Source: Kribbella sp. NBC_01245 (GTDB taxonomy: Bacteria > Actinomycetota > Actinomycetes > Propionibacteriales > Kribbellaceae). From it: DNA of 64,000 nucleotides. Shown here one piece after another: positions 48,980 through 64,000 of the stretch; the stretch's first letter is position 1, and every line of letters starts with the position of its first letter. The notes beneath the pieces are model-generated. The model was not told the DNA's origin and searched no databases. It saw nothing but the letters and a program-made list of their open reading frames with translations. Where the stretch lies: positions 3,596,001 to 3,660,000 of the forward strand of contig NZ_CP108487.1 of the NCBI RefSeq assembly GCF_036226525.1, read 5' to 3'. The translations under genes were made by a program, and so were the position numbers.

Positions 48980-49848
48980 GCAACCTCTTCAACCTCACCG
49001 TCTACGGCCTGGCCGACGGCGCGATCCTGGCGCTGGCCGCACTCGGCTTCGTGCTGATCTACAAGGCCACCTCGGTGATCAACTTCGCCCAGGGCGAGTT
49101 CCTGCTGGTCGGCGCATACACCGTCTACGCGGTGTTCGTGCTGATGGGCCTGCCGGTGGTCGCGGCGGTCGTGGTCGGCCTCGGGATCGCCGTGCTCCTC
49201 GGGATCGGAATCGAACGCTTCGTGTTGCGACCGCTGGTCGGCGAGAGCGCGATCAGCGTGATCATGGTGACCATCGGTCTCGCGGCGGTGCTGCGCGCGG
49301 TGGTGCAGATGTTCTTCGGGACCGCGGTGCGCGAGCAGCCGGCGATCCTGCCGCGGGGGTCAGTGCGGATCCTCGGTGCGCTGGTGCCGCTGGATCGGCT
49401 GCTCGTCATCATGATCGCGGCGGTGGTCCTGACCGGGTTCACTGTGTTCTTCCGCCGGTCCCGGCACGGGATCGCGATGCGGGCGGTGGCTGACGACCAG
49501 CAGGCCGCGCTCACCGTCGGCATCTCCGTACGGCGGGTGTTCGCGATGGCGTGGGCGCTCGCCGCGGCCAGCGCGCTGGTCGCCGGCGTACTGCTCGCAG
49601 ACATCTCCGCCGTCGAGCAGAACATCGCCGCCTTCGGCCTGATCGTCTTCCCGGTGGTGATCCTCGGCGGGCTCGACTCGGTGCCCGGCACGATCGTCGG
49701 CGGACTCACCATCGGCCTGCTGAAGGTGTACGTCTCCGGCTACGCCGATCCGGGTCTCGCCGAGGTCGTGCCATACCTCGTGCTCGTCGCGATCCTGATG
49801 GTCCGGCCCTACGGGCTGTTCGGCGAGACACGTATCGAGAGGGTCTGA
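48976..49848 (+). CDS. HAAT-family ABC transporter permease, LivH type
   Basis: 290-aa permease with about eight hydrophobic segments. Family motifs are GLADGAILALAALGFVLIYK, NFAQGEFLLVGAY and GISVRRVFAMAWALAAASA. The ATG overlaps the FadD15 stop (ATGA). It forms the channel with LivM. Confidence 0.93.
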   Translation: MSNLFNLTVYGLADGAILALAALGFVLIYKATSVINFAQGEFLLVGAYTVYAVFVLMGLPVVAAVVVGLGIAVLLGIGIERFVLRPLVGESAISVIMVTIGLAAVLRAVVQMFFGTAVREQPAILPRGSVRILGALVPLDRLLVIMIAAVVLTGFTVFFRRSRHGIAMRAVADDQQAALTVGISVRRVFAMAWALAAASALVAGVLLADISAVEQNIAAFGLIVFPVVILGGLDSVPGTIVGGLTIGLLKVYVSGYADPGLAEVVPYLVLVAILMVRPYGLFGETRIERV

Positions 49849-49849
49849 T

Positions 49850-50914
49850 GTGAGTACTGTCACCGCCACCGGGATCCATCACCGCAGCTACCGCGGCGAG
49901 CTCGCACTCCGGCACACCAGAGCCGAGTACGCCCGCCTGGCACTCGTCGTCCTGCTCCTGGTCGCGCTCCCCTACATGCTGAACATCTACTGGCTGGGCA
50001 TCGTCAACACGATCCTGATCGCGGTCATCGGTGCGGTCGGGCTGAACATCCTTGTCGGCTTCACCGGGCAGATCTCACTCGGCCAGGGCGGGTTCCTCGC
50101 CGTCGGCGCGTTCACCTCGGCGATCCTGCACGAACGGGCCGGGCTGCCGGTCCCGCTGTCGGTGTTCGCCGCGGTGCTGACGACCGCCACGGTCGGTGCG
50201 TTCTTCGGCCTGCCGGCGCTGCGGCTCAAGGGGCTGTATCTCGCCATCGCCACCCTGGCCAGCCAGGAGATCATCGTGTTCACCGTCAAGCGCTGGTCCT
50301 GGCTGACCGAGGGCCAGGGCTTCCTCGACGTGTCCCGGCTCGAGATCTTCGGCTGGCGGATCGAGCGCACGATGTTCGAAGTCCAGTGGTACTGGATCCT
50401 GCTGGTGATCGCCGCCGTCGCGGTCGTTGCCGCGCGCAACCTGTTCCGCACCGGGCTCGGCCGGTCGTTCATGGCGGTGCGCGACCAGGACATCGCGGCC
50501 GCCGCGATTGGCGTCAACGTGACCCGCACCAAGGTCACCGCCTTCGCGGTGTCCAGCGGCTTCGTCGGGCTCGCCGGCGCCCTCACCGCGCACTACACCG
50601 AGACGGTCACCTGGGAGCGCTTCACGCTCGACGTGTCGGTGCTGTACCTGGCGATGATCATCGTCGGCGGCCTGGGCTCGATCGCCGGCGCGGTCTACGG
50701 TGCGGCGTTCCTGATCCTGCTGCCCGTCCTGATCTCCGAGCTGAGCGAGGCGGTCGAACCGGCGTTCCCCTTCCTGTCCACGCAGCTCCCGGCGATCCGG
50801 AACGCGGTGTTCGGCCTGGTCATCCTGCTCTTCCTGATCTTCGAACCTCGCGGCCTGGCTCGCGTCTGGCAGCGAATGAAGGACTACGTGCGGTTCTGGC
50901 CCTTCCGGTACTGA
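49850..50914 (+). CDS. HAAT-family ABC transporter permease, LivM type
   Basis: 354-aa permease. Motifs are GLNILVGFTGQISLGQGGF, LRLKGLYLAIATLASQEI, AIGVNVTRTKVTAFAVSSG and the terminal FLIFEPRGLARVW. The GTG start at 49850 lies 1 bp after the LivH stop, with GAGAGGG upstream. An ATG at 49848 is out of frame. Confidence 0.93.
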   Translation: MSTVTATGIHHRSYRGELALRHTRAEYARLALVVLLLVALPYMLNIYWLGIVNTILIAVIGAVGLNILVGFTGQISLGQGGFLAVGAFTSAILHERAGLPVPLSVFAAVLTTATVGAFFGLPALRLKGLYLAIATLASQEIIVFTVKRWSWLTEGQGFLDVSRLEIFGWRIERTMFEVQWYWILLVIAAVAVVAARNLFRTGLGRSFMAVRDQDIAAAAIGVNVTRTKVTAFAVSSGFVGLAGALTAHYTETVTWERFTLDVSVLYLAMIIVGGLGSIAGAVYGAAFLILLPVLISELSEAVEPAFPFLSTQLPAIRNAVFGLVILLFLIFEPRGLARVWQRMKDYVRFWPFRY

Positions 50915-50956
50915 ACCAACTGACTTGTTCGACCCACTGCAATCGGAGGAACGGCA

Positions 50957-52156
50957 ATGAAGCGACTCAGCGCGATCGCGGCACTCTCGACGGCCGCCTT
51001 GCTCGGCCTGTCGGCGTGCGGGGGCGGCGCGGCGACAGGCGGCGGCGACACCGAAGGCCCGATCAAGATCGGCGTCATCGCCGACCGGTCGGGCGCCACC
51101 GCCGACGTCGGCACGCCGTACAACGAGGGCATGCTCGGCTACGTCGAATGGCGCAACGCCAAGGGCGGCATCGAGGGACGCAACATCGAGGCCATGTCGA
51201 ACGACTACGCCTACCTGGTGCCCAAGGCCGAGGAGCTCTACAAGAAGTACATCGCCGAGGGCGCGGTCGCGATCCAGGGCTGGGGAACGGGCGACTCCGA
51301 GGCACTGCGCAAGAAGGTCGCCGCCGACGAACTGCCGTTCATGTCCGCGTCGTACGCCGAGGTGCTCACCGACGTCGCGGAGTCGCCGTACAACTTCGTC
51401 GTCGCACCGACGTACTCCGACCAGATGCGGGTCGCGCTGGACTGGATCGCCCAGGACAGCGGCGGGCAACGCACCCAGGTCGCGGTGTTCCACCACGACT
51501 CGCCCTTCGGCACCGCACCGGTCGCCGACGGGCAGAAGTGGCTCGTCGAGAAGGGCTACGACCTCGGCTACAAGTCGTTCGCGATGCCGAAGACCCCGAA
51601 CTTCGTGGGTCTGCTGTCACAGGCACGGTCCCTCGGCGCGAAGTACATCGTGATCCAGAACGTCTCGAGTCCGGCCGCCCAGGTGGCCAAGGACATCAAG
51701 GCGCAGAACCTCGACATGAAGATCGTCTGCCTCAACTGGTGCTCCGACGAACTGTTCATCAAGACCGCGACACCGGCCGTTGCCGAGGGCCACATCATGA
51801 TCCAGCCGTTCGCACCGCCGACCACGGCGAAGCCCGGACACGCCGACATCGAGGAGTTCCTGAAGAGCAAGGGCTCCTCACTGCAGGACAAGGGGCTGCA
51901 CTATGTCCAGGGATGGTGGACGATGGCGGCCATGGCACAGGGCATCGAGAAGGTCCTGAAGGACGGCGACGAGCTCAACGGCCCGAACATCCGCAAGGCG
52001 CTCGAGGGACTGCAGCTCGACACCGGCGGCGTCGTCGGCGGCGGCACCGTGAAGTTCAGTACCGACAGCCACCGCGGGTCGACCGGCACCGGCATCTACC
52101 AGGTCAAGGGTGGCCAACTCACCGAACTCACCGCCAACGCGGCCCCGAAGGAGTAG
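50957..52156 (+). CDS. HAAT substrate-binding lipoprotein (LivK-like)
   Basis: 399-aa Peripla_BP_6 type binding protein with lipobox LSAC (about residue 21). The mature start PIKIGVIADRSGATADVG and the bilobal pattern are typical. In actinomycetes this family binds branched amino acids, but also aromatic acids, short amides or steroid side-chain acids. Neighbouring CoA ligases favour a carboxylic acid ligand here. AATCGGAGGA precedes the ATG. Confidence 0.92.
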   Translation: MKRLSAIAALSTAALLGLSACGGGAATGGGDTEGPIKIGVIADRSGATADVGTPYNEGMLGYVEWRNAKGGIEGRNIEAMSNDYAYLVPKAEELYKKYIAEGAVAIQGWGTGDSEALRKKVAADELPFMSASYAEVLTDVAESPYNFVVAPTYSDQMRVALDWIAQDSGGQRTQVAVFHHDSPFGTAPVADGQKWLVEKGYDLGYKSFAMPKTPNFVGLLSQARSLGAKYIVIQNVSSPAAQVAKDIKAQNLDMKIVCLNWCSDELFIKTATPAVAEGHIMIQPFAPPTTAKPGHADIEEFLKSKGSSLQDKGLHYVQGWWTMAAMAQGIEKVLKDGDELNGPNIRKALEGLQLDTGGVVGGGTVKFSTDSHRGSTGTGIYQVKGGQLTELTANAAPKE

Positions 52157-52158
52157 CG

Positions 52159-53004
52159 ATGGCCGTCGAGACCAGTGCGGGAGCGGGCAGTTCGCCGGCC
52201 TCCTCACCCGGAGCGACGCTGCTGGCTCTCAACAACGTCGAGGTCATCTACGACGAGGTCATCCTGGTGCTGCGCGGCCTGTCCCTGGAGGTACCGGAGG
52301 GGAAGATCGTCGCCCTCCTCGGCTCCAACGGTGCCGGGAAGTCGACGACCCTGAAGGCGATCTCCGGCCTGCTGCCCACCGAGCACGGCGAGATCACCGA
52401 CGGCCGGATCAACTTCGGCGGCACGGACATCACCCGCATCGACGCCGCCGAACGGGTCCGCCGTGGACTCTCGCTATGCATGGAGGGCCGGCACGTCTTC
52501 GAGCACCTGAGCGTGCACGAGAACCTGGTCGCCGGTTCCTATTCCCGGGGCCGGGCCTCGACCGAGGACCTCGACCTGGTCTACGGCTACTTCCCGAAAC
52601 TCGCCGACATGCGCACAAGGGTAGCGGGATATCTGTCCGGCGGTGAGCAGCAGATGCTCGCGATCGGCCGTGCGCTGATGTCCAGGCCGCGGCTGCTGAT
52701 GCTCGACGAGCCGTCACTCGGTCTCGCGCCTCTGCTGGTGCAGGAGATCTTCGGCTACATCGCCCGGCTGAACGCCGACACCGGGCTCACCGTCCTCGTC
52801 GTCGAGCAGAACGCCCGGCGCGCACTCGAGGTCGCTCACCACGGCTACATCATGGAGCAGGGCCGCATCGTGCTGGAGGGAACGGCAACCGAACTGCGGG
52901 ACAACCCGGACGTCAAGGAGTTCTACCTCGGTCTCGGCGAGGAAGGCAGCCGCAAGAGCTACCGCGATGTCAAGCACTACAAACGCCGGAAGCGGTGGCT
53001 ATGA
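52159..53004 (+). CDS. HAAT-family ABC transporter ATP-binding protein, LivF type
   Basis: 281 aa. Walker A is GSNGAGKST, signature YLSGGEQQMLAIGRAL, Walker B LLMLDEPSLGLAP, and the H-loop equivalent VVEQNARRALE. GAAGGAG precedes the ATG. A basic C-terminal tail (SYRDVKHYKRRKRWL) extends beyond typical LivF, and such tails are seen in cluster-type LivF proteins linked to CoA ligases. It completes the five-component importer. Confidence 0.92.
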   Translation: MAVETSAGAGSSPASSPGATLLALNNVEVIYDEVILVLRGLSLEVPEGKIVALLGSNGAGKSTTLKAISGLLPTEHGEITDGRINFGGTDITRIDAAERVRRGLSLCMEGRHVFEHLSVHENLVAGSYSRGRASTEDLDLVYGYFPKLADMRTRVAGYLSGGEQQMLAIGRALMSRPRLLMLDEPSLGLAPLLVQEIFGYIARLNADTGLTVLVVEQNARRALEVAHHGYIMEQGRIVLEGTATELRDNPDVKEFYLGLGEEGSRKSYRDVKHYKRRKRWL

Positions 53005-54215
53005 CGGAGGCGACCATGCCCGAAAGCACAACACACCCGCTCGACGACCGCGTCGTGGCCATGGTCCGGGAGGCTGCGTCCCGGGTCACGGTGTTCGCCG
53101 ACCGCCTGCGAGCGGCCGGCCTCTCGCCCGACGACATCCGCGGCGTCGGTGATCTCGACGCGTTGCCGATCCTCACGAAGGACGAGGTCCTGGCCATGCA
53201 GCGGGAGCAGCCGCCTTACGGTGGCCTGCTCGCCGCCGACGCGACCGTGCGGCGGGCATTCCAGTCCCCCGGACCGATCTACGAGCCACAACTGGACGGG
53301 GCCGATCCGTGGCGCTGGCGTGAGGCGCTGGCCGCGGCAGGGTTCGCCTCGGCGGACATGCTGCTGAACTGCTTCGGCTATCACCTCTCCCCCGCCGGCG
53401 CGATGTTCGAGGAAGCAGCACTCGCGGCAGGCTGCACCGTCGTACCCGGTGGTGTCGGCAACCTCGACCTGCAAGCGCAGGCCATCGCCGACCTGGGCGT
53501 CACGGCGTACACCGGGCTGCCGAGCTACCTCAAGGCACTGATCGAGCGGTACGACGAGTCCGGGCTGGACCCCGCTCGCTGGCGACTGGACAAGGCAATC
53601 GTCACCGCGGAACCGCTACCCGACTCGCTGCGCGCGTTGCTCACCGAGCGGGTACCGGTCGTCCGGATGGCCTACGGTACCGCCGAGACCGGGCTGCTCG
53701 GCTACGAGACGGAACCGGCCGGCGGGCTCGTCGTACCCAACGACGTACTCGTTCAGGTTTGCGACCTCGACACCGGCAGATCCCTCGCCGCCGGTGAGGG
53801 CCAGATCGTCGTGACGCTGCTCAGGCCGGACTATCCGCTGGTCCGGTTCGGCACCGGCGACCTCTCGGCCTGGCAGCCAGGCCCCGTGCCCGGCGACAGG
53901 CCCCGGCTGGCCGGGGTGCTCGGCCGCGTCGGCGCCGCGGTGAAGGTCCGCGGGATGTTCCTGCACCCACGCCAGATCGAGGCCGTGATGCGCGACCTGC
54001 GCGGCGTCACGTCGTACCGGTTCGTCGTCGACCGCGTCGAGCACCGCGACGAGCTCCGCTGCGAGGTGGTACCGGCAGCCGAAGCCACGGCTGAACGAGT
54101 GGCCGCCGCGGTGCGGGACCGGATCCGATCCGGCCTGCGCTTCGCGGCGCGCGTCGAGGTCGTCGCCGACCTGAGCGAAGGACCACTGCTGGTCGACGTC
54201 CGCACTTGGGACTGA
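53001..54215 (+). CDS. PaaK-like AMP-binding enzyme with altered core motifs
   Basis: 404 aa, related to phenylacetate-CoA ligase: the N-terminal LDALPILTKDEVLAMQRE, the central LNCFGYHLSPAGAMFEEAA, YGTAETGLLGYE, and VRFGTGDLS. The usual SSGTTGxPT phosphate loop reads QSPGPIYEPQ. The C-terminal EGKxxRV lysine motif is changed to EGPLLVDVRTWD. Catalysis may differ or be lost. ATG 53001 overlaps the LivF stop (ATGA); ATG 53016 has a better GGAGG and is an equal candidate. It is the last gene of the importer operon. Confidence 0.8.
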   Translation: MTEATMPESTTHPLDDRVVAMVREAASRVTVFADRLRAAGLSPDDIRGVGDLDALPILTKDEVLAMQREQPPYGGLLAADATVRRAFQSPGPIYEPQLDGADPWRWREALAAAGFASADMLLNCFGYHLSPAGAMFEEAALAAGCTVVPGGVGNLDLQAQAIADLGVTAYTGLPSYLKALIERYDESGLDPARWRLDKAIVTAEPLPDSLRALLTERVPVVRMAYGTAETGLLGYETEPAGGLVVPNDVLVQVCDLDTGRSLAAGEGQIVVTLLRPDYPLVRFGTGDLSAWQPGPVPGDRPRLAGVLGRVGAAVKVRGMFLHPRQIEAVMRDLRGVTSYRFVVDRVEHRDELRCEVVPAAEATAERVAAAVRDRIRSGLRFAARVEVVADLSEGPLLVDVRTWD

Positions 54216-54239: not shown

Positions 54240-54715
54240 ATCAAGAGACGGATCGCAATCATCGCCGCGGCCATGGCGCTGCTGGTCGTCGGTGCCGGCC
54301 AGGCCATGGGACAAGACGCTGCCCGCCGGATCCGACCCAGCGAAGGTGCGGGTCGGCGTTGACGGGCGCGACATCACGGCCGCCTTCGCCGTACGCCCGG
54401 ACGGGCGGTTCGCCGGGCTCGTCACCGGTCTGCGGGTGGGCGCCAGCACAGTGACCGCACGTGGCCCGGGAGGAGCGGTCCGGCTCACCGTCACCAACCA
54501 CCCGGTCGGTGGCCCGGTGTTCGCCGGCCCGCAGGTGCAGCCCTGGTTCTGTGCCACCGAGCAGAACGGCCTCGGCCCCCCTCAGGACGCGCAGTGCAAC
54601 GCCGGGCCGCGGTACGACCTGTTCTACCGGTCCTCGCTCACCGGCCTATTCCGCTCCTACGACCCGGCGAATCCCCCGATCGACCTCGCCTACACCACTA
54701 CCTGGCCGTCACGGT
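54240..54715 (+). pseudogene. DUF6351 gene remnant, internally deleted and 3'-truncated
   Basis: A ribosome binding site (CAGGAGA) is followed by ATC where ATG is expected (54240), then a signal-like KRRIAIIAAAMALLVVGAG. The frame then shifts, and reading resumes as PAGSDPAKVRVGVDGRDITA through LTVTNHPVGGPVFAGPQVQP, closely matching residues 50-150 of the intact paralogue at 36.1-38.3 kb. It ends at 54715 where sequence of the convergent surface-protein gene begins. About 85 percent of the gene is missing. Confidence 0.8.
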
Positions 54716-56260
54716 GAAGGTGTAGGACGTGCCGTTGTCGAGGTTCGGGATCGAAGCATTGGGCGTCGCCGAAGGGATTTCCGCACCGCCAGGGCTGACT
54801 TTCACCGTGTAGCCGCTGATGGTGAGGTCACCGGTGTCGGCGGGCGCGGTCCAGGAGACTGCCGCCGAGCGGTCGCCCGCCTGCGCGATCACGTTCGTGG
54901 GCGCTTGGGGCTTTCCTGGGTTGAGCGCGTAGCCCTGAACATCGACATACAGGCGGGCCGCGGCGTTCGTGCGGTTGGCGATGGTGATGTCGCCGGAGGC
55001 GTTCGGCCGGACCCACAGCTGGTTGAACTGGTGCGGGCTAGGAGCGAAGATCACATCGGTCGCGGCAGGTGCGGACTGTCCCGCGGTATACGCCTTGAAC
55101 TCGCCCGACGTGGCCGACCCGGACGCGACCAGGTTGATCGCCGCCGCCGCGAGGTTGCTTGCCGGTATCCCGCCCACGCCGGTCAGCCGCAGATTCACCG
55201 TGGCACCGGCCGCGACCAGCGTGGTGCCCGTGTCGAGGATCCGGCGTGACGACAACGCGACCACGCGGCTGGACGCAGCGGTCGCGTTCGAGGCGCTGGT
55301 GAAATAGCCGGTCACATCCACCGTGAAGTGCGTCGTGCCGGTCGAGGTATTGGTCAGCGACAAGCGGCCGTCGGTCGCGACCTTGACGATCGAGCTGCCG
55401 GTCTTCGGCCGGGTCTGCAGGTGTAAGCCGTGATTCACTCCAGGACGGGTAGCCCCAGCCGGGAACAGCGTCCAGCCACCGAAAGCCGACGGAACCAAGG
55501 CCGTGACGTTCACGGCGACCGCCGAGATCGACGAGGCCGCAGGCAGGCCTCCGACTCCGGCCACCTGGAACGTGATGGTTCAATTCGCTGCCACCGGGGC
55601 GGTTCCACCCACGCCGATCTTGGCGCGGGTGTCGACGATCCGGGACTGCTTCAGCGGGACGAACCGCGAACCCGCGGTGGTCGCGGTGTCGCCGGTGAAG
55701 TAGCCCGTGACGTCGACGCGGATGCGTAGCGTCCCTGCGCTTTTATTGGAGAAACTCGCCTGACCTGACGCGTTCAGCCGGATCACCGCCGAGCCGGACA
55801 TGTACTTCATGTTCGCCGCGAACAGCAGCCCCGACACCGCCGGCCGGGTCTCGCCGGCCGGCCACGCGGGCAGTGAGCCGGACGCGGTCGGGCTGAGGAC
55901 CTGGACCGTCGCGGCGATTGCCGTTACTCCGGTGGCCGGGATCCCGCCGAGGCCCGTGAAGGTGGCTGTTTTTGTCTCCTGAGCCTGGACCAGTGTCGTC
56001 CCGGAGTCGTAGAGCCGCTGAGTGGTTGCCAGCGGGACGTACAACCCGCCACCGGCACCAGGAGCGGCAGCAGCCGCCGCCGTGGGCGCCGCGGTTGAAC
56101 TGGGAGCCGCCACGGCCACCGGGGGCTGGATGGTCGACGTCGCGTGCAGCCCTGTGGCCAGCACGGCCAAGACAACGAGGTACCGGATGAGTCGCCGCGC
56201 TGATATCTCCCGAGCGCTGGTTCTATTGGGGCGGAGCGCGGCCACGAGTGACTTAGGCAT
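54698..56260 (-). pseudogene. secreted beta-repeat surface protein, split by an in-frame TGA and 3'-truncated
   Basis: ATG 56260 (GGAGG upstream) opens a signal-bearing protein (RRLIRYLVVLAVLATGLHA) with about three 120-residue beta repeats, each running from an R-x-x-D-[ST]-x-T/A start (QRLYDSGTTLV, SRIVDTRAKIGVG, RRILDTGTTLVA) to a DV.GYF end. A TGA at 55580-55582 interrupts the second repeat, yet the same frame continues unbroken to 54698. The last part is a fibronectin III start that stops at YTFTVTAR, exactly where the DUF6351 remnant ends. Such proteins are usually cell-surface or secreted. Confidence 0.7.
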
Positions 56261-56412
56261 CAGGGGAAGACCTCCAGGAAGGGTCGACAGACCGGCGGGT
56301 GCCGATTCTGGTGACCACACCCGTCACGCCACTGCCCGTACTCCGCCCGTACGGCCGATCAGCCGTAACGGCAACGGCTTCGCCGCTATCGAGACGGCGT
56401 GTTCGCAAGGGA

Positions 56413-58647
56413 TCAGGCAGGCGGAGCGGGTGCTTCGAGCCGGATCAGGACGCCCTTCGACGTCGGGGTGTTGCTGATGTCGGCAACGCTGTCGAGCGGG
56501 ACGAGCACGTTCGTCTCCGGGTAGTACGCCGCCGCGGACCCACGGGCGGCCGGGTAGCCGACGAGCCGGAACCCGGCGGCCCGGCGCTCGGTGCCATCCC
56601 GCCACACGCTGACGAGATCGACCAGGTCACCGTCGGCGAACCCGAGCCCGGCGATGTCCTCGGGATTGACCATCACAATCCGGCGGGCGTTGTGGATGCC
56701 TCGGTAGCGGTCGTTCATCGAGTACGGGATGGTGTTCCACTGGTCGTGAGAGCGCAGCGACTGCAGGATCAGGTGGCCGGGCGGGGTCTGCAGCCACTCC
56801 AGCTCGTTGCACGTGAACACCGCCCGCCCGCTCGGCGTCGGATACACGCCGGAGTTCACCGGGTTCGGTAGCGTGAAGCCGCCAGGCTGCTTGACCCGCT
56901 CGTTGAAGTCCTCGAAACCCGGTACGACGCGCGCGATCCGGTCCCGGACCAGGTCGTAGTCGGCTTCGAACTCGTCCCACGGGATCGCCGGCGAATCACC
57001 CAGGGTGCGCTGCGCGAGCCGGGCAATGATCGCGACCTCGCTGAGCAGGTACGGCGACGCGGGCGGCAAGGTCCCGCGCGACCGGTGCACCGCGCTCATC
57101 GAGTCCTCGACGGTGATGTACTGCTCGCCCGTCGCCTGGATGTCGCGATCGCTCCGACCCAGCGTCGGGAGGATGAGGGCGGTCCGTCCGGTCACGGTGT
57201 GGGACCGGTTGAGCTTGGTCGAGACCTGCACGGTGAGAGCGCAGTTGCGCAGGGCCGCCTCGGTGACCTCGCTGTCCGGTGTGGCCCGGACGAAGTTCCC
57301 GGCCACGCCGACGAACACTCGCGCGGCCCCGTCCCGCATCGCCCGGATGGCGTCCACCGAGTCCAGACCGTGTTCCCGCGGCGGATCGAAGGCGAACTCG
57401 TCCCGCAGCGCGTCCAGGAACGAGTCGGGCATCCGCTCCCAGATCCCCATCGTGCGGTCACCCTGGACATTGGAGTGGCCGCGAACCGGGCAGACCCCGG
57501 CCCCCGGTTTGCCGATGTTGCCGCGCAGCATCAGGAAGTTGACCACCTCGCGGATGGTCGGTACGCCGTGCTTGTGCTGCGTCAGGCCCATCGCCCAGCA
57601 GACGATGACGGACCGGCTGGCCAGGACGGCCTCGTGCACGGCCTCGATCTCGTCCCGGGTCAGGCCGGTGGCTACGAGCGCGTGCTCCCACGTGATCGTC
57701 CGGGCGTGGTCGGCGTACGCCTCGAAACCGGTGGTGTGCCGCGCGATGTAGTCCCGATCGAGTACGTCGTCCTCGAGCAGGCGGCGGTTCAGCATCTGGA
57801 ACAGCGCGAGGTCGCCACCGGGCCGGATCTGCAGGAACTGATCGGCGATCTCCGTACCGCGGCCGACGATCCCACTGGGCTTCTGTGGATTCTTGAAGCG
57901 CATCAGGCCGGCCTCGGGCAGGGTGTTGACGGCGATCACCCGGCCGCCGTTCTTCTTCGTCTGCTCGAGCGCGGAGAGCATCCGCGGGTGGTTGGTGCCC
58001 GGGTTCTGCCCGACCACGAAAACCAGGTCGGACCGGTAGATGTCCTCGAGTTGCACGCTGCCCTTGCCGATGCCGAGGGTCTGGCCGAGCGCGGAGCCGC
58101 TGGACTCGTGGCACATGTTCGAGCAGTCCGGCAGATTGTTGGTGCCGAAGGCCCGGGCGAACAGCTGGAGCAGGAACGCCGCCTCGTTGTTCAGCCGGCC
58201 GGACACATAGAACAGTGCCTCGTCGGGTGAGTCGAGCCCGTTCAGCTCGTCGGCGACGATCCCGAATGCCTCGTCCCAGCCGATCGGCGCGTAATGGGTG
58301 GCACCGGGCCGCCGGACCATCGGCTCGGTCAGCCGGCCCTGCTGGTTGAGCCAGAGGTCGGACTTGCCGTCCAGTTCCTCGATCGAGTGCTCGGCGAAGA
58401 AGTCGCGGGTGACCCGGCGGGTGGTCGCCTCGTCGTTGATGTGCTTCGCGCCGTTCTCGCAGTACTCGTTCGTGTGCCGGTGATCCGGCTCCGGCCACGC
58501 ACACCCGGGGCAGTCGAAACCCTTGACCTGGTTGAGGTTGAGCAGCGTCAGCGCGGTACGGCGTACCGTGGTCTGCTCGACTGAATACCGCAGCGCATGC
58601 ACGACCCCCGGCAGGCCGGCCGCGTACGTTTTCGGCTTTCCTCGCAC
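56413..58647 (-). CDS. FdhF/YdeP-type molybdopterin oxidoreductase
   Basis: 744 aa from GTG 58647, with GGAGACC upstream. The N-terminal GFDCPGCAWPEP and EYCENGAK are characteristic of the YdeP/FdhF-like branch, and only three of the usual four iron-sulfur cysteines are seen. The Mo-ligand region is NMCHESSGSALGQTLG. MGD-binding stretches include VGQNPGTNHPRML and GNIGKPGAGVCPVRGHSNVQ. The C-terminal domain is VYPTPSGRAVFTCNELEW. The branch is annotated as formate dehydrogenase-like; activity of most members is unproven. Next to folate C1 genes, formate oxidation is the simplest role. Confidence 0.88.
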   Translation of the reverse strand: MRGKPKTYAAGLPGVVHALRYSVEQTTVRRTALTLLNLNQVKGFDCPGCAWPEPDHRHTNEYCENGAKHINDEATTRRVTRDFFAEHSIEELDGKSDLWLNQQGRLTEPMVRRPGATHYAPIGWDEAFGIVADELNGLDSPDEALFYVSGRLNNEAAFLLQLFARAFGTNNLPDCSNMCHESSGSALGQTLGIGKGSVQLEDIYRSDLVFVVGQNPGTNHPRMLSALEQTKKNGGRVIAVNTLPEAGLMRFKNPQKPSGIVGRGTEIADQFLQIRPGGDLALFQMLNRRLLEDDVLDRDYIARHTTGFEAYADHARTITWEHALVATGLTRDEIEAVHEAVLASRSVIVCWAMGLTQHKHGVPTIREVVNFLMLRGNIGKPGAGVCPVRGHSNVQGDRTMGIWERMPDSFLDALRDEFAFDPPREHGLDSVDAIRAMRDGAARVFVGVAGNFVRATPDSEVTEAALRNCALTVQVSTKLNRSHTVTGRTALILPTLGRSDRDIQATGEQYITVEDSMSAVHRSRGTLPPASPYLLSEVAIIARLAQRTLGDSPAIPWDEFEADYDLVRDRIARVVPGFEDFNERVKQPGGFTLPNPVNSGVYPTPSGRAVFTCNELEWLQTPPGHLILQSLRSHDQWNTIPYSMNDRYRGIHNARRIVMVNPEDIAGLGFADGDLVDLVSVWRDGTERRAAGFRLVGYPAARGSAAAYYPETNVLVPLDSVADISNTPTSKGVLIRLEAPAPPA

Positions 58648-58683
58648 TGGTGGTCTCCGTTCTCGTGCGCGACAGGGTGGGGT

Positions 58684-58714
58684 TTGGGCGCCGGAAGTGG
58701 CTTCCGGCGCCCAA
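58684..58714 (-). terminator. strong hairpin between folC and the FdhF gene
   Basis: A 14-base stem, TTGGGCGCCGGAAG, pairs perfectly with CTTCCGGCGCCCAA across a 3-base loop (TGG). It lies just downstream of the folC stop. There is no long T tract, as is common in actinomycetes. It probably ends the folate operon transcript before the FdhF gene, which then needs its own promoter or read-through. Confidence 0.65.
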
Positions 58715-58734
58715 CCCCGAACCGATGGGAGTGC

Positions 58735-60099
58735 TCACCCGGGCAAGGGTTGACCCATCGGTCGTCTGGGCGTGTCCGCGGGCAGGACCTGGTTCGCGTC
58801 GCCGACGGTCACGACCGAGCCGGTGACGAGCACCAGGCCGTCGGGCTCGTTCCCGGGCAGCGGCGCCGCGAGTGTGCGGGCCTTGTCGAGCGCGGTCGCC
58901 ACGTTGAACGCGACATGGACGCGCTGCGCCCCGAACACCTGCCGGGCGGTGGCGGCGAGCTTCGCCGGCGCGAGGCTGCGTGGGCTCGAGTTGCGGGTGC
59001 AGACGACGACGTCGACGACCGGCTCGAGCTCGCGCAGCATGCCCTCGACGTTCTTGTCCGCCATCGCCGCGATGACCGCGAACGTCCGGCAAGGCGCCAG
59101 CTCCGTCAGCGACTCGGCCAGCGCGCGGGCGCCGTGCGGATTGTGGGCGGCATCCAGAATCACCAGCGGCGAGCCGGGCCGAACGTCGAAGCGACCCGGC
59201 GACGCAGCCTGGCCGAGAGCGGCTCGCACCGCGCCCAGTTCCAGTTCCCGGCCGAGTGCTCCTTCCGCTGCGGCGATGGCGCAGGCAGCGTTCTCGGCCT
59301 GGTGACGACCGTGTAAGGCCAGGAAGACGTTGCTGTACGACCGGTACAGGCCCCGCACAGAGATGACCTGGCCACCCTCGACGACAGTCCGGCGCTCGAG
59401 GATGAAGTCCGCGCCCTGGCTGACCAGACGGGCGTCCACGGTCTGTGCCCGTTCCCGCAGTACCGCGGCGACCTCCTGGCTTTGCAACGCGCTGACGGCG
59501 ACCGACCCCGGTCCGATGATGCCTGCCTTCTCCTCGGCGATCGCGGTCGTCGTCGGGCCGAGGTAGTCGGTGTGATCGAGGTCGACCGGGAGTACGACGG
59601 CGACGTCGGCGTCGATCACGTTCGTGGCGTCCCACCGCCCGCCCATCCCCACCTCGACCACGGCGATGTCGATCTCCGCATCAGCGAAGGCGCGGTAGGC
59701 CATGGCCACCGTCATCTCGAAGAACGACAGCGGATGCGGCATCGACGCGTCGACGAGTTCGGCCTGCTTGCCGACCGCGCTGAAGGCGGACCGGAAGGCC
59801 GGCACTCCGATGACCTCCTCGGCGATGCCGATCCGCTCCCGGACGCTCGTCAGGTGTGGGCTGGTCAGCCGGCCGGTGCGCTCGCCGGACCCGGCCAGCA
59901 GTGCCTCGATCATCCGAGCCGTGCTCGTCTTGCCGTTGGTCCCGGTGATGTGGACGCTGCGGTACCTGCGCTGCGGATCGCCCAGCAGCCGCAGCACACT
60001 GACGATGCGGTCCAGGGACGGCTCGAGCTTGGTCTCCGGCCATCGGGCCAGCAGCCGTCGTTCGATCGCCCGGATCGACGGGCTGTTCGACAGGCTCAT
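58735..60099 (-). CDS. folC: bifunctional folylpolyglutamate/dihydrofolate synthase
   Basis: 454 aa from ATG 60099, in ATGA overlap with the MTHFR gene. Mur-ligase family motifs are the P-loop TGTNGKTSTARMIEALL, SPHLTSVRERIGI, EVGMGGRWDATNVID, and DAAHNPHGARALAESL. It adds glutamate to folates so they are retained and used by C1 enzymes. Being in an operon with FolP, FolD and MTHFR rather than with cell-division or nucleotide genes, it may be a catabolic-dedicated copy. Confidence 0.9.
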   Translation of the reverse strand: MSLSNSPSIRAIERRLLARWPETKLEPSLDRIVSVLRLLGDPQRRYRSVHITGTNGKTSTARMIEALLAGSGERTGRLTSPHLTSVRERIGIAEEVIGVPAFRSAFSAVGKQAELVDASMPHPLSFFEMTVAMAYRAFADAEIDIAVVEVGMGGRWDATNVIDADVAVVLPVDLDHTDYLGPTTTAIAEEKAGIIGPGSVAVSALQSQEVAAVLRERAQTVDARLVSQGADFILERRTVVEGGQVISVRGLYRSYSNVFLALHGRHQAENAACAIAAAEGALGRELELGAVRAALGQAASPGRFDVRPGSPLVILDAAHNPHGARALAESLTELAPCRTFAVIAAMADKNVEGMLRELEPVVDVVVCTRNSSPRSLAPAKLAATARQVFGAQRVHVAFNVATALDKARTLAAPLPGNEPDGLVLVTGSVVTVGDANQVLPADTPRRPMGQPLPG

Positions 60100-60989
60100 G
60101 AAACTCCCCGTCCCGGGACACCGGCCGCCGGGCGGACGCCCGTCCGGTTGCGCAGACGGGCCAGCTGGGCCAGCCGCCATTCCTCGGTCGCCGCGATCTG
60201 GTTGAAGGTGAACAGGTGCAGACCGGCCACGCTCAGGTCCTCGCGGCCGAGCGTCGCCGCGGCTCCGGTGAGGAACCGGGCCGGGTCGGACCCGCCGGGT
60301 GCCGCGATGCGGGCGAACAGTCCGCGGTGCTTCGCCAGGAACCTGGCCGACTCACCGACCCCGATCTTCGTTGCCATTCGCAACAACCTGGCGCGCTCGA
60401 CCGGCCCCGGCACCCCGACCAGGATCGGCAGGTGTACGTCGCGGGCGCGCACGCGCCGTACCCAGGACGACAGCACGCGCGGGTCGAAGGTGAGGTTGCT
60501 GACCAGCTCGGTGGCGTACCGGCGCTTGTCCCACATCGCCTGGATGGTCAGGTCGTCGGAGATCCCCGGATGCGACTCGGGGTAGCCGGCGATCCCGACG
60601 CCGGCGAACGGATTGCCCAGCTGCGCCAACTCCGTCAGCACCTGCAGGGCCGAGTCGTAGCCGCCGGCCGGGTCGGCATCGCCGCCGGGGACGAACACCT
60701 TCGTGATCCCGGCACTGCGCAGCCTGCTGACGAGCTCAGCGAGTTCGCCCGGTCCGGCGATCATCCGCGCGGCGAGATGTGGCACGACATCGAAGTCCTG
60801 CGCCGCCAGCCGTTCCGCCGTACGAAGGGTCGCTTCGAGACCCTTCGCGGGTGACGCGGTGACCGTGACGGTCGCGCCGCTGGGAAGGCCGGCACACACC
60901 TCGTCCACCACGCTCGCCGTCGGCAGCACTTCGTAGCGGACCCGGGTGAGCAGTCCTTCAAGTACGTCGCGCGTGTGCCGGCGCATCAT
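60096..60989 (-). CDS. methylenetetrahydrofolate reductase family protein
   Basis: 297-aa TIM-barrel flavoprotein-like enzyme. Motifs are GATVTVTASPAKGLEATLR, FDVVPHLAARMI, KVFVPGGDADPAGGY, GIAGYPESHPG and DLSVAGLHLFTFNQI, matching the MetF superfamily, including the GYPE.HP active-site loop. MTHFR interconverts methyl- and methylene-THF. ATG 60989 overlaps the FolP stop (ATGA). In this cluster it would run in the oxidative direction on methyl-THF. Confidence 0.85.
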   Translation of the reverse strand: MMRRHTRDVLEGLLTRVRYEVLPTASVVDEVCAGLPSGATVTVTASPAKGLEATLRTAERLAAQDFDVVPHLAARMIAGPGELAELVSRLRSAGITKVFVPGGDADPAGGYDSALQVLTELAQLGNPFAGVGIAGYPESHPGISDDLTIQAMWDKRRYATELVSNLTFDPRVLSSWVRRVRARDVHLPILVGVPGPVERARLLRMATKIGVGESARFLAKHRGLFARIAAPGGSDPARFLTGAAATLGREDLSVAGLHLFTFNQIAATEEWRLAQLARLRNRTGVRPAAGVPGRGVS

Positions 60990-61855
60990 CGACCACCTAC
61001 CGCCGCGATCCGGGCAGCGACCCGTACGGCGGCTGCCGCCGGAGGAACCGTGTGCACGCGAACCCCCCACACTCCCGCCGACGCCGCGAGCGCCGCGACC
61101 GCGCTGGAGGCGTCGTCGCGATCCAACGGGCTGTCCGGATCAAGTCCGCCGTAGTCCACGCAGTCGGCCAGGAACCGCTTGCGGGAGGCACCGATCAGGA
61201 TCGGGAAACCGAGCTCACGCAGGGCCGGGAGAGCGCCGAGCAGGGCCCAGTTGTGCTCAGCCGTCTTGGCGAATCCCAGCCCCGGGTCGAGCACGAGCTG
61301 CTGGGTCAGGATCCCCGCGGACAAGGCGGCATCCACACGCTTCGACAGTTCGGCGCGGACGTCGTCGACCACCGCGTCGTAGCTGGCGAACGCGTCCATG
61401 ACGGCCGACTGCGCACGCCAATGCATCAGGACGCAGGATGCCCCCGTGTCGGCGATCAACGGCAGCATCGCCGGATCCGCCAGCCCACCCGACACGTCGT
61501 TGACCAGCTCTGCTCCGGCATCCAGCGCCTTCGCGGCGACACTCGCCCGCATCGTGTCCACCGATACCCTGATCCCGGCGTCGCACAACGCGGCGATCAC
61601 CGGGATCACCCGTCGTACCTCCTCGGCCGCATCCACGCGGACGGCGCCGGGCCGGGTCGACTCTCCCCCGACGTCGACGAGGTCCGCGCCCTGCCGGACC
61701 AGTTCGAGGCCCCGGGCCACTGCCTCGTCGTACGCGTCGTGCTGACCGCCGTCGGAGAACGAGTCTGGCGTGACGTTCAGGACGCCGAGCACCTGGCACT
61801 GCGTCACCACCGTCTGCCGGGCTGTCGCCGCTTCGGCGACCCGCAACCCGTTCAT
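60986..61855 (-). CDS. folP: dihydropteroate synthase
   Basis: 289 aa. Motifs are [15 protein letters not shown] (residues 23-37), [45 protein letters not shown] and [10 protein letters not shown], all the conserved pterin- and pABA-site segments. It condenses pABA with the pterin pyrophosphate in folate synthesis. It is coupled by ATGA to both neighbours. It may be a second copy beside a housekeeping folP. Confidence 0.93.
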
Positions 61856-62709
61856 GCCACCGCCGCCCGCTCGGCGATCTCGACGATGTTCATCAGCAGC
61901 ATCGCCCGGGTCATCGGGCCGACGCCGCCGGTCGCGGGACTCACCAAGCCGGCCACCGCGTCGACCTCGGGATGGACGTCGCCCAGGATGCCTTCGATCG
62001 TGCGGGTGACACCGACCGACAGCACGGTCGCCCCGGGGCTGATCCAGTCCGGCTTGACCAGATGGGCCACCCCGGCGGCCGCGACGACCACCTCCGAAGC
62101 CCGCGTGTGCGCGGCGATGTCAACGGTCGCCTCGTGGCACAACGTGACCGTCGCGTGTTCGCTCGGACGCGTCAGCATCAGCCCGAGCGGCCGGCCGACG
62201 GTCAGCCCGCAGCCGATCACGCAGAACCGCTGCCCGGTGATCTCCACGTCGTGCCGGCGGAGCAACTCGATGATTCCGCGCGGCGTGCAGGGCAGCGGGC
62301 CGGGAATGCCGAGCACCAGCTTGCCGAGGTTGGTCGGATGCAGGCCGTCGGCGTCCTTCGCAGGGTCGATCAACTGCAGGACCCGATGCATGTCGACGTG
62401 CGGCGGCAACGGGAGTTGCACGATGAACCCGGTGCACGCCGGGTCGTGGTTGAGCCGCCGTACCGCCGCCTCGATGTCTTCCTGGGTAGCGGTGGCCGGC
62501 AGTTCGACCCGGATCGACTCGATTCCGACCTCGGCACAGTCACGGTGCTTGCCGGCGACGTAGGAGTGGCTGCCCGGGTCGTCGCCGACCAGGATCGTGC
62601 CGAGACCAGACCGGATCCCCTGCCTGCGTAGGACTTCGACGCGGACCGCCAGCTGCGCCTTCAGCTCACCGGCGACCGCCCGTCCGTCAATCCTCGTTGC
62701 GATAGCCAC
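61852..62709 (-). CDS. folD: methylenetetrahydrofolate dehydrogenase/cyclohydrolase
   Basis: 285 aa from GTG 62709 (AAAGGCG upstream); an extended start at 62769 would overlap the reductase gene. Motifs are [76 protein letters not shown] and [17 protein letters not shown]. In typical FolD the GRSxxVGxP loop has Ser; here it is GCGLTVGRP. It oxidises methylene-THF to methenyl-THF and hydrolyses it to formyl-THF. Confidence 0.92.
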
Positions 62710-62749
62710 CGGCACGCCTTTCCGAGACTCGTTGGGGGAACACGGAGGT

Positions 62750-63913
62750 TCAGACCGGTACGGCGGCATTGAGCCGCCGCCGCCATCGGCCGAACAGACG
62801 TGGCTGGTTCATGCCGAGGACACCGACGGGGATCTCGCCGCGGCGGTACACGGCCAGCAGGTCGCGGCCCTCCGCCGTACCGTCCTCGACCGTGACCGAG
62901 TCGGCTTCGGCAGCATGCCCGGCGAACTGGATCCGGACGTCGTACTGGTCGGACCAGAAGTAGGGAACGGCCGCCTGGCGTGGGTTGTCGCCGCCGAGGA
63001 GAGCGGCGACCGCGATGGCCGGTCGCTCCATCGCGCCGGTCCAGTGCTCGACCCGGTGGCTGCGGCCGAGCCGCTGGTCGTACCAGGCAGCGCAGTCGCC
63101 GACCGCCATCACGGTGGGAACGCTGGTACGACCCTGGTGGTCACACTCGACCCCGTTGCCCAGGGCAACGCCAGAGCGGATCAGCCATTCGACATTGGGG
63201 ATCGCGCCGATGCCGACCACCACCACGTCGGCGGGCAGCACGGTGCCGTCGGCGAGTTCGACGGCCTCGACTCGCTCGGCACCGACGAGCCCTCGGACCC
63301 CGACGCCGCACCGCAGCGCGACGCCGTGCGCAGTGTGCAGCCCGCTCACCACAGCGCCCATCTCCACGCCCAGCGGCCCGGCGAGCGGCGACGCCATCGC
63401 CTCGACCACCGTGACCTCGAGGCCGAGTGCGTTGGCCGTAGCGGCGACCTCGCCGCCGATGAAGCCGGCACCGATGACCACCAGGCGCGCTCCGGGCTGC
63501 AACTCCGCCCGCAGCGCGACGGCATCCTCGAGCGTCCGCAACGAGTGCACGCCGGCCAGGCCCGCCGATCCGGGCAACGCGCGGGCGCGGGCGCCGGTCG
63601 CGAGAATCACGCCGTCGCTGCCGACCCGGGTGCCGTTGGCGAGGATCACCTCGCGGGCGGCCGGGCTCAGCGAGACGGCCGGCGACCCGAGCAGCCAGCG
63701 CGCTTCCAGGTCGTCGTCATCGGCCGACTCCAGCGCCAGCACGTCAGCGTCGATCTTGCCGGCCAGGAACTCCTTCGACAGCGGCGGCCGGTCGTAGGGC
63801 CGGTGCCGCTCGTCGCCGACGACCACGACCTGACCGTCGAACCCCTGTGTCCGCAGCGCCTGCGCGGCGTAGAGACCAGCGAGCGAGGCACCGACGATCG
63901 TGATCGTCCTCAT
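62750..63913 (-). CDS. FAD/NAD(P)-dependent ferredoxin reductase
   Basis: 387-aa pyridine nucleotide-disulfide oxidoreductase. The FAD motif is [15 protein letters not shown] (residues 5-19), then [26 protein letters not shown], the NAD motif [16 protein letters not shown], and [16 protein letters not shown] reductase C-terminal domain follows ([18 protein letters not shown]). This type passes electrons from NADH to a ferredoxin or Rieske partner of an oxygenase or demethylase. The partner may be the gene cut at the window edge (ATGA overlap). Confidence 0.9.
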
Positions 63914-64000
63914 GACGACACCCCGAACGTGACACCGGGCGGGAGGTTGGGCTCGGCATCGGACAGCTCCACACAGATGTGGTCGTCCTCGATGTGCACG
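63910..64000 (-). CDS. C-terminus of a gene continuing beyond the window
   Basis: Only 29 full codons are visible, ending [16 protein letters not shown] followed by TGA at 63910-63912. The stop overlaps the ATG of the ferredoxin reductase (ATGA), so it is the upstream gene of the C1 operon. The fragment is acidic and too short to identify. A demethylase, ferredoxin or Rieske protein would fit the context, but none can be claimed. Confidence 0.6.
   Translation of the reverse strand, partial: VHIEDDHICVELSDAEPNLPPGVTFGVSS

Follow-up and report, generated by a model that had tools for sequence, protein, structure and literature searches.

Clusters for sarcosine catabolism with the gene content glyA-soxBDAG-sdaA-purU are known from Corynebacterium U-96 and Arthrobacter and, taken together with the dimethylglycine oxidase (DMGO) of A. 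globiformis, they have the same demethylases, GlyA, SdaA, PurU and route to pyruvate as the locus of Kribbella sp. NBC_01245 described here (PMC3534580 and PMC3691474, as far as the accessible parts of these sources go). This locus starts in, and extends to the right of, a stretch of 64,000 nucleotides of contig NZ_CP108487.1, hereafter the window, which covers bases 3,596,001-3,660,000 of a single-contig genome of 8.68 Mb. Whereas the accessible descriptions of the Corynebacterium and Arthrobacter clusters name no folP, folC, methylenetetrahydrofolate reductase (MTHFR) or FdhF, in the window folP, an MTHFR gene and folC are chained by overlap with folD, and fdhF comes next. Catabolic operons usually depend on housekeeping genes for their cofactors. 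Our best reading is that a known pathway carries a dedicated folate-supply branch, the folate supply being its unusual part; with a probability of about 0.64, we regard the locus as the one-carbon end of a complete catabolic cluster for (glycine) betaine that brings its own folate-supply genes.

Other described systems resemble this locus in part. Plasmid pCMU01 of Methylobacterium extorquens CM4 (folC2, folD, metF2, purU) likewise holds a one-carbon catabolic set with a divergent MTHFR and an extra FolC, but it serves chloromethane demethylation by CmuAB, and the table of plasmid genes, in the accessible part of the paper, lists no folP, pabA or pabB (PMC3621897). The module of Sphingobium SYK-6 pairs LigM with S6MTHFR, an enzyme of the same type as the window MTHFR by sequence and fold; the Kribbella cluster has no LigM, and its demethylases should instead give methylene-tetrahydrofolate (methylene-THF). 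The MttB/corrinoid systems for quaternary amines of Nocardioides and its kin contain a sister clade of MTHFRs, with PurU beside many of them, but neither FolP nor FolC is found at any of 44 such loci, and the Kribbella genome has no MttB match. In the literature, covered mostly by title and the start of the abstract, we came across no account of betaine, sarcosine or O-demethylase clusters that include folP or pab genes.

All genes of the operon lie on the minus strand and, read from 64000 to 56413, are arranged as follows.

63910..64000, minus strand: Rieske-type [2Fe-2S] ferredoxin, 3' end in the window, extending to ~64260 (NF007422, 152 bits; cut-off 113)
62750..63913, minus strand: ferredoxin-NAD(+) reductase of the Rieske-oxygenase type (Pyr_redox_2 and Reductase_C domains)
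61852..62715, minus strand: folD, methylene-THF dehydrogenase/cyclohydrolase (NF010789, 430 bits; cut-off 401), with the start codon picked by hand in this analysis
60986..61855, minus strand: folP, dihydropteroate synthase by sequence, a dedicated extra copy (TIGR01496, 280.5 bits; cut-off 162.6)
60096..60989, minus strand: MTHFR of the Sphingobium SYK-6 (LigM-partner) type (closest solved structures 7xg9/7xlf, 106 bits)
58735..60099, minus strand: folC, dihydrofolate/folylpolyglutamate synthase, second copy in the genome (TIGR01499, 319 bits; cut-off 163)
56413..58647, minus strand: fdhF, FdhF/YdeP-family molybdopterin oxidoreductase, presumed formate dehydrogenase, the last gene of the operon (TIGR01701, 909 bits; cut-off 582)

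Each of the joins FolD-FolP, FolP-MTHFR and MTHFR-FolC is a 4-bp overlap, the reductase-FolD and FolC-FdhF gaps measure 34 bp and 87 bp, respectively, and the stop of the ferredoxin gene overlaps the start of the reductase gene (63910). An earlier note, made from the letters of the window alone, had read a folate cassette here, with FolD, FolP, MTHFR and FolC behind a ferredoxin reductase and followed by an FdhF/YdeP-type enzyme; all of these are present, overlapping from FolD to FolC. The upstream gene that it predicted beyond the window turns out to be the Rieske ferredoxin. That reading of a single one-carbon cassette holds in part: the predicted neighbors and extra gene copies exist, but the reductase, whose top NCBIfam model is HcaD (253 bits, under the cut-off of 450), most likely belongs, with the ferredoxin, to a Rieske oxygenase rather than to the folate enzymes.

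The whole cluster comprises 20 genes over ~25 kb, and families could be assigned to all 20. Beyond the window, the plus strand encodes an IclR-family regulator, a BCCT transporter, PurU, an S-(hydroxymethyl)mycothiol dehydrogenase (673 bits to its model; cut-off 513) and an MBL hydrolase, and the minus strand encodes SdaA, SoxG, SoxA, SoxD, SoxB, GlyA, the Rieske oxygenase and DMGO. The demethylase, Rieske oxygenase and betaine genes for which the earlier note had pointed to the right of the window are thus there, in the form of DMGO, SoxA, the Rieske oxygenase and the BCCT transporter, along with PurU and the formaldehyde dehydrogenase. DMGO matches the solved N,N-dimethylglycine oxidase 1pj5 over nearly its full length (1019 bits) and consists of DAO, FAO_M, GCV_T and GCV_T_C domains, so that a GcvT-type folate domain is present. 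SoxA scores 1221 bits against the solved heterotetrameric sarcosine oxidase 2gag and 1232 bits against TIGR01372 (cut-off 1164), and SoxD exceeds the cut-off of TIGR01374 (124 versus 116.5); SoxG falls just short of TIGR01375 (138 versus 144), and SoxB, scored on a sequence truncated to 327 residues, is under the cut-off of TIGR01373 (492 versus 529). The model cut-offs of GlyA, SdaA and PurU are exceeded, and the SoxBDAG and GlyA/SdaA/PurU assignments were upheld as a set. MttB/corrinoid demethylation as the methyl source was ruled out, with 0 matches to PF06253 in the genome at E<=0.01, and LigM is found neither among the 20 cluster genes nor, at E<=1e-40, in the genome.

These assignments suggest the following pathway. 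The BCCT transporter would import betaine, and the Rieske oxygenase, with the ferredoxin and its reductase, would take off the first methyl group as formaldehyde; the mycothiol-dependent dehydrogenase and the MBL hydrolase would then convert this to formate. DMGO, which like sarcosine oxidase loads THF as methylene-THF, and then SoxBDAG would strip the next two methyl groups. GlyA and SdaA would turn glycine and one methylene unit into serine and then pyruvate, and FolD and PurU, a route that yields formate, would process the other methylene unit, with FdhF presumably oxidizing the formate to CO2. We propose that extra THF supply is needed because folate is sequestered by the demethylases that bind THF: FolP and FolC (plus PabA/PabB in relatives) would raise and polyglutamylate the THF pool while the operon is on, and the folate cofactor that catches the methyl groups could thus be produced whenever the substrate arrives. 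The genes and their order, the copy numbers and the kinship are results of the sequence analysis; the activities, the regulation and the effect on the pool are all inferred.

Both folP and folC are extra copies, since homologs are encoded elsewhere in the genome, as the earlier note had supposed might be the case: two further members of the dihydropteroate synthase (DHPS) family are 58% and 36% identical to the cassette FolP, and one further FolC is 47% identical to the cassette FolC, a third weak match (~67 residues) being excluded from the count. By sequence, the cassette FolP is a dihydropteroate synthase, with 263/260 bits to the DHPS structures 6omz/1eye and, in the alignment with these, conservation of the motifs that we take to bind substrate. 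A role as a sulfonamide-resistance enzyme is unsupported, the Sul1-4 models giving 110-185 bits against cut-offs of 475-600, compared with 280 for the general DHPS model. The cassette FolC reaches 341 bits against the solved FolC 2vor and misses the bifunctional equivalog model NF047860 (512 bits; cut-off 700).

The earlier note was correct in calling an MTHFR, but not one of the standard type: the protein scores 45 bits against the standard MTHFR model (cut-off 293.7). Among PDB sequences, it matches 7xg9/7xlf with 106 bits, the next match being 27, and its AlphaFold2 model (mean pLDDT 84.9) is closest to SYK-6 MTHFR 7xlf (Z 27.5 and 27.1), followed by E. coli MTHFR (23.6) and the flavin-free mycobacterial enzymes (~18; 18.3). 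By sequence and predicted fold, it is a divergent, catabolic-type enzyme of the SYK-6 kind, and an identity as flavin-free mycobacterial Mfr was dropped, both lines of comparison being nearer to SYK-6 MTHFR. Glu20 is invariant across 23 aligned MTHFR sequences, and residue 165 is Asn in the betaine and MttB types and Gln in three LigM-type rows; these positions appear to correspond to the catalytic Glu and pterin-binding Gln of MTHFRs, as described in the accessible part of PMC11094777. A canonical MetF is encoded elsewhere in the genome (330 bits to PF02219, compared with 27.5 for the cassette MTHFR; a third match is under the cut-off), whereas a second copy of the cassette type was not found in the genome, apart from a weak stretch of 30% identity.

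This MTHFR may work in either direction: the demethylases here should yield methylene-THF, though the closest solved relative oxidizes 5-methyl-THF. Heterotetrameric sarcosine oxidase passes its one-carbon unit to THF as methylene-THF (PMC3691474, accessible part), and SYK-6 MTHFR is reported, in a conference abstract, to oxidize the 5-methyl-THF delivered by LigM (PMC12585457). The methyl-THF oxidation proposed in the earlier note therefore fits the type of enzyme but is not a required step, since one-carbon units should enter as methylene-THF and formaldehyde. Within the betaine pathway that we favor, MTHFR would most likely return to methylene-THF the 5-methyl-THF that MetF makes from the flooded methylene-THF pool, which is the least certain step of the scheme. 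Conversely, the enzyme could be reductive, converting some of the abundant methylene-THF to 5-methyl-THF to supply methionine and S-adenosylmethionine, and the cassette would then strike a balance between the breakdown and the biosynthetic use of one-carbon units. No source of methyl-THF is evident here, given what is generally known of the demethylase chemistry, and Streptomyces betaine loci retain an MTHFR of this family but show neither MttB nor LigM within the flanks read; both points would fit a reductive role. Yet the nearest solved structure is the methyl-THF-oxidizing SYK-6 enzyme, members of the sister clade are encoded in MttB/corrinoid clusters and further relatives next to LigM, settings in which methyl-THF would be expected to require oxidation, and the canonical MetF is available for methionine. 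We consider reduction somewhat unlikely but deserving of real weight.

To place the cassette among its relatives, we used the best 80 of 271 relatives of the window MTHFR from named genomes; these are its closest kin and hence not independent draws, close kin being over-represented because of this choice. Neighbors were counted by tblastn (E<=1e-12, filtered for coverage) in flanks that end at 10 kb, several contigs being shorter. At 9 of the 80 loci, FolP is no more than 100 bp from the MTHFR match, and at 10, FolC is beside MTHFR, at one of them in two frames; the order FolD-FolP-MTHFR-FolC, which is seen in Kribbella, Nocardioides and Hoyosella, is intact at seven (L015, L016, L018, L019, L023, L044 and L049). 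Since the 80 loci amount to 1.48 Mb, chance alone would place roughly half a DHPS gene in them (2-3 per ~7-Mb genome; rough arithmetic), and the adjacency of FolP and MTHFR exceeds this level. The loci with FolP or FolC, from Kribbella turkmenica (L015), several Nocardioides, two Hoyosella, Micromonospora sp. KC606 and Isoptericola, always hold betaine genes or the IclR, ferredoxin/reductase or PurU genes of the cluster. MttB-family/corrinoid neighbors are found at 44 of the 80 loci, the checked representatives including MTTB, B12-binding, pterin-binding methyltransferase and DUF1638 proteins; the DUF1638 protein recurs at 41 of the 80 loci (family 4), often beside MttB/corrinoid genes, for instance in Nocardioides (L055, 10894-11562). 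In the two Hoyosella loci, a second FolD, 61-63% identical to that of the window, is encoded between DMGO and the Rieske oxygenase (L019, 16808-17644; L023, 14851-15702).

Phylogenetic analysis groups the 10 cassette FolPs in one clade (97/99) and sets the genus's housekeeping copies apart (100/100), which rules out a recent duplication of the housekeeping copy; the interleaving of organisms within the clade points to transfer between lineages. In an MTHFR tree of 55 rows, thinned to one in three of the MttB loci and of the betaine loci that lack folP/folC, and with long LigM branches joined, the 12 MTHFRs from folP- or folC-bearing clusters likewise form one clade (100/97), adjoining the MttB-associated MTHFRs (97/78). 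In five genera from as many families, the operon has thus retained FolPs of a single clade and MTHFRs of a single clade. Compared with the sister species (L015; NG86), dN and dS are 0.11 and 0.69 for FolP, 0.16 and 0.68 for MTHFR, and 0.11 and 0.66 for FolC, so that all three are under purifying selection, yet they change faster than FolD, FdhF, PurU or MscR.

Within the genus, DMGO is present in 2 of 38 genomes and this MTHFR family in 3 of 38. Among the matches listed from 147 genomes of the order, with the best E-value of each genome seen, FolPs of >62% identity come from the same two genus genomes as DMGO. The third genus genome with this MTHFR (G020) encodes, closely spaced on one strand, a LigM/DesA-like O-demethylase, FolD, a YciI-like protein, MTHFR, PurU and FolP. 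The O-demethylase is under the cut-offs of both the DesA (500 bits; cut-off 800) and LigM (471 bits; cut-off 580) models; the operon (L122, 13863-19580) has two YciI-like genes, with aromatic-acid transporter and hydroxylase genes not far away. This operon should depend on the oxidation of methyl-THF, and it too has a FolP of its own. A survey of 394 genomes of the class revealed SoxA at 49 places in 48 genomes and LigM-like proteins at 29 places in 17 genomes, the latter covered by 21 regions, of which 14 contain the MTHFR family. One of these regions (L174) has the one-strand order LigM-LigM-MTHFR-PurU-FolD-PabB-FolP, and folP and/or pabB occur in three LigM-type operons (L122, L174 and L175). 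The LigM-operon FolPs (G020 and G224) fall outside the cassette FolP clade, in an unresolved part of the tree and with a long branch for G020, so that a separate origin does not follow from it. The two FolPs found in SoxA neighborhoods both lie directly behind soxG: in L138 (12235-13020; G161), this is a full-length, presumably extra DHPS-family gene in a betaine cluster, whereas FolP in L156 (7059-7953), like FolC in L017 (10954-11469), spans two frames, through decay or sequencing error.

Genes for the p-aminobenzoate branch accompany some of these clusters. PabA-type and/or PabB proteins are encoded at 7 of the 80 MTHFR loci (L019, L020, L021, L044, L045, L046 and L049), with two more, weak hits at the edges of loci; in L046 (10001-20852) and L045 (10001-18793), they stand beside MTHFR, FolD and SdaA, in L046 also with an MttB/corrinoid cluster. 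In the sister species (G040, L124), an intact PabB and a PabA-type amidotransferase are encoded directly beside DMGO. PabB was detected by tblastn in 3 of the 21 LigM regions, two of which (L174 and L175) were confirmed by a family scan, and PabA/PabB in 1 of the 48 SoxA neighborhoods (L156), as a fusion. Against TIGR00553 (cut-off 328), the PabBs of L174, L175 and L156 score 350-363 bits and those of L019, L049 and the sister species 311-325 bits, just under the cut-off; every PabB so scored beats any TrpE model. The amidotransferases pass TIGR00566, which covers PabA and TrpG alike, and have anthranilate synthase component II as their top model, under its cut-off; we call them PabA because PabB adjoins, and the assignment is weaker in L020 and L021, where PabB was not found beside the amidotransferase. 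Three other chorismate-binding enzymes elsewhere in the Kribbella genome are 54%, 40% and 32% identical to the L019 PabB. The pabA/pabB genes of sister clusters, together with the folP or pabB genes seen in certain O-demethylase operons, support the suggestion that the cassette may enlarge the folate pool.

Several observations weigh against a betaine cluster with its own folate supply. The Rieske oxygenase fails the GbcA model NF058607 (224.7 bits; cut-off 670), its nearest solved relatives being 3vca/4qup/3n0q and carnitine monooxygenase, and is classed here as a Rieske oxygenase of presumed betaine type; the BCCT transporter passes the general family model TIGR00842 (544 bits; cut-off 408) but narrowly fails the betaine model NF047988 (620.7 bits; cut-off 650); because both score under their betaine models, glycine betaine is the likely, not the proven, first substrate. 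A scan of 56200-58800, in which actinobacterial promoters are poorly covered, gave no promoter or terminator signal. MttB-type clusters also load THF, yet none of the 44 has FolP or FolC, and 17 Streptomyces loci with the same MTHFR family, most of them with betaine genes, lack both in the flanks read. The pair is also not always kept together, L063 having FolP without FolC, and L020 and L021 FolC without FolP. FolP is found in only 2 of the 48 other SoxA neighborhoods and FolC in 0 of 48, and the LigM regions have FolP in 1 of 21 (L174) and FolC in 0 of 21. Finally, pabAB has decayed in the Kribbella genome, where the place on the DMGO side holds only a pabA fragment (46-72% identity over short stretches, E 4e-9) next to DNA ~85% identical to that of the sister species. 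Folate genes in demethylation clusters are thus a real but minority habit.

The rarity of folP and folC in the sampled sox/betaine clusters, the split FolC of L017 and FolP of L156, and the pabAB relic could also mean that the betaine pathway is real but folP and folC are mere passengers, captured with folD and offering only added gene dosage or a back-up. This appears unlikely, given that FolPs of a single clade and MTHFRs of a single clade have been kept with the operon across five families, that the genes overlap tightly and are under purifying selection, and that folP and/or pabB recur in operons of the LigM type. We retain the dedicated folate supply as the preferred explanation.

At the end of the operon, FdhF aligns with E. 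coli FdhH such that Cys179, His180 and Arg389 occupy the positions of U140, H141 and R333, which we take to be the catalytic residues of FdhH. The protein misses the Fdh-alpha equivalog TIGR01591 (251 bits; cut-off 666), and TIGR01701 spans both FdhF and YdeP, which would be compatible with a YdeP-like oxidoreductase acting on another substrate, formate being exported or oxidized elsewhere. We regard this as quite improbable: the Cys/His/Arg positions, with their presumed catalytic roles, are kept, the gene ends an operon expected to make formate, and the protein presumably belongs to the same family as FdhF of C. glutamicum. The latter is reported to oxidize formate (PMC8879981, accessible part of a review). 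Downstream of fdhF, two neighboring minus-strand open reading frames (54698-56320) have, by eye, alike repeat-like sequence in different frames and may be one broken gene; further left (48580-54215), genes for a branched-chain-type ABC transporter, a substrate-binding protein and an AMP-ligase-like protein, also recognized by eye, are apparently unrelated to the folate operon.

A bolder and highly speculative extension, to which we give little credence, is that aerobic actinobacteria build up a private folate pool, induced by the substrate and reserved for demethylation; in this view, pabA/pabB, folP and folC would travel with unrelated THF-coupled demethylases (dimethylglycine/sarcosine oxidases, LigM-type enzymes and, once, MttB), and the tail added by the cassette FolC would keep these folates with the catabolic enzymes rather than with general one-carbon metabolism. 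Short of this, the cluster places cofactor-synthesis genes inside a catabolic operon, an arrangement repeated in some differently built demethylation operons, and it shows that a surplus DHPS gene close to catabolic genes is not necessarily a resistance gene. The possibility that folate supply limits methyl catabolism becomes testable, and folP-MTHFR-folC and pabAB are candidate parts for engineering the THF-dependent demethylation of betaine or lignin aromatics.

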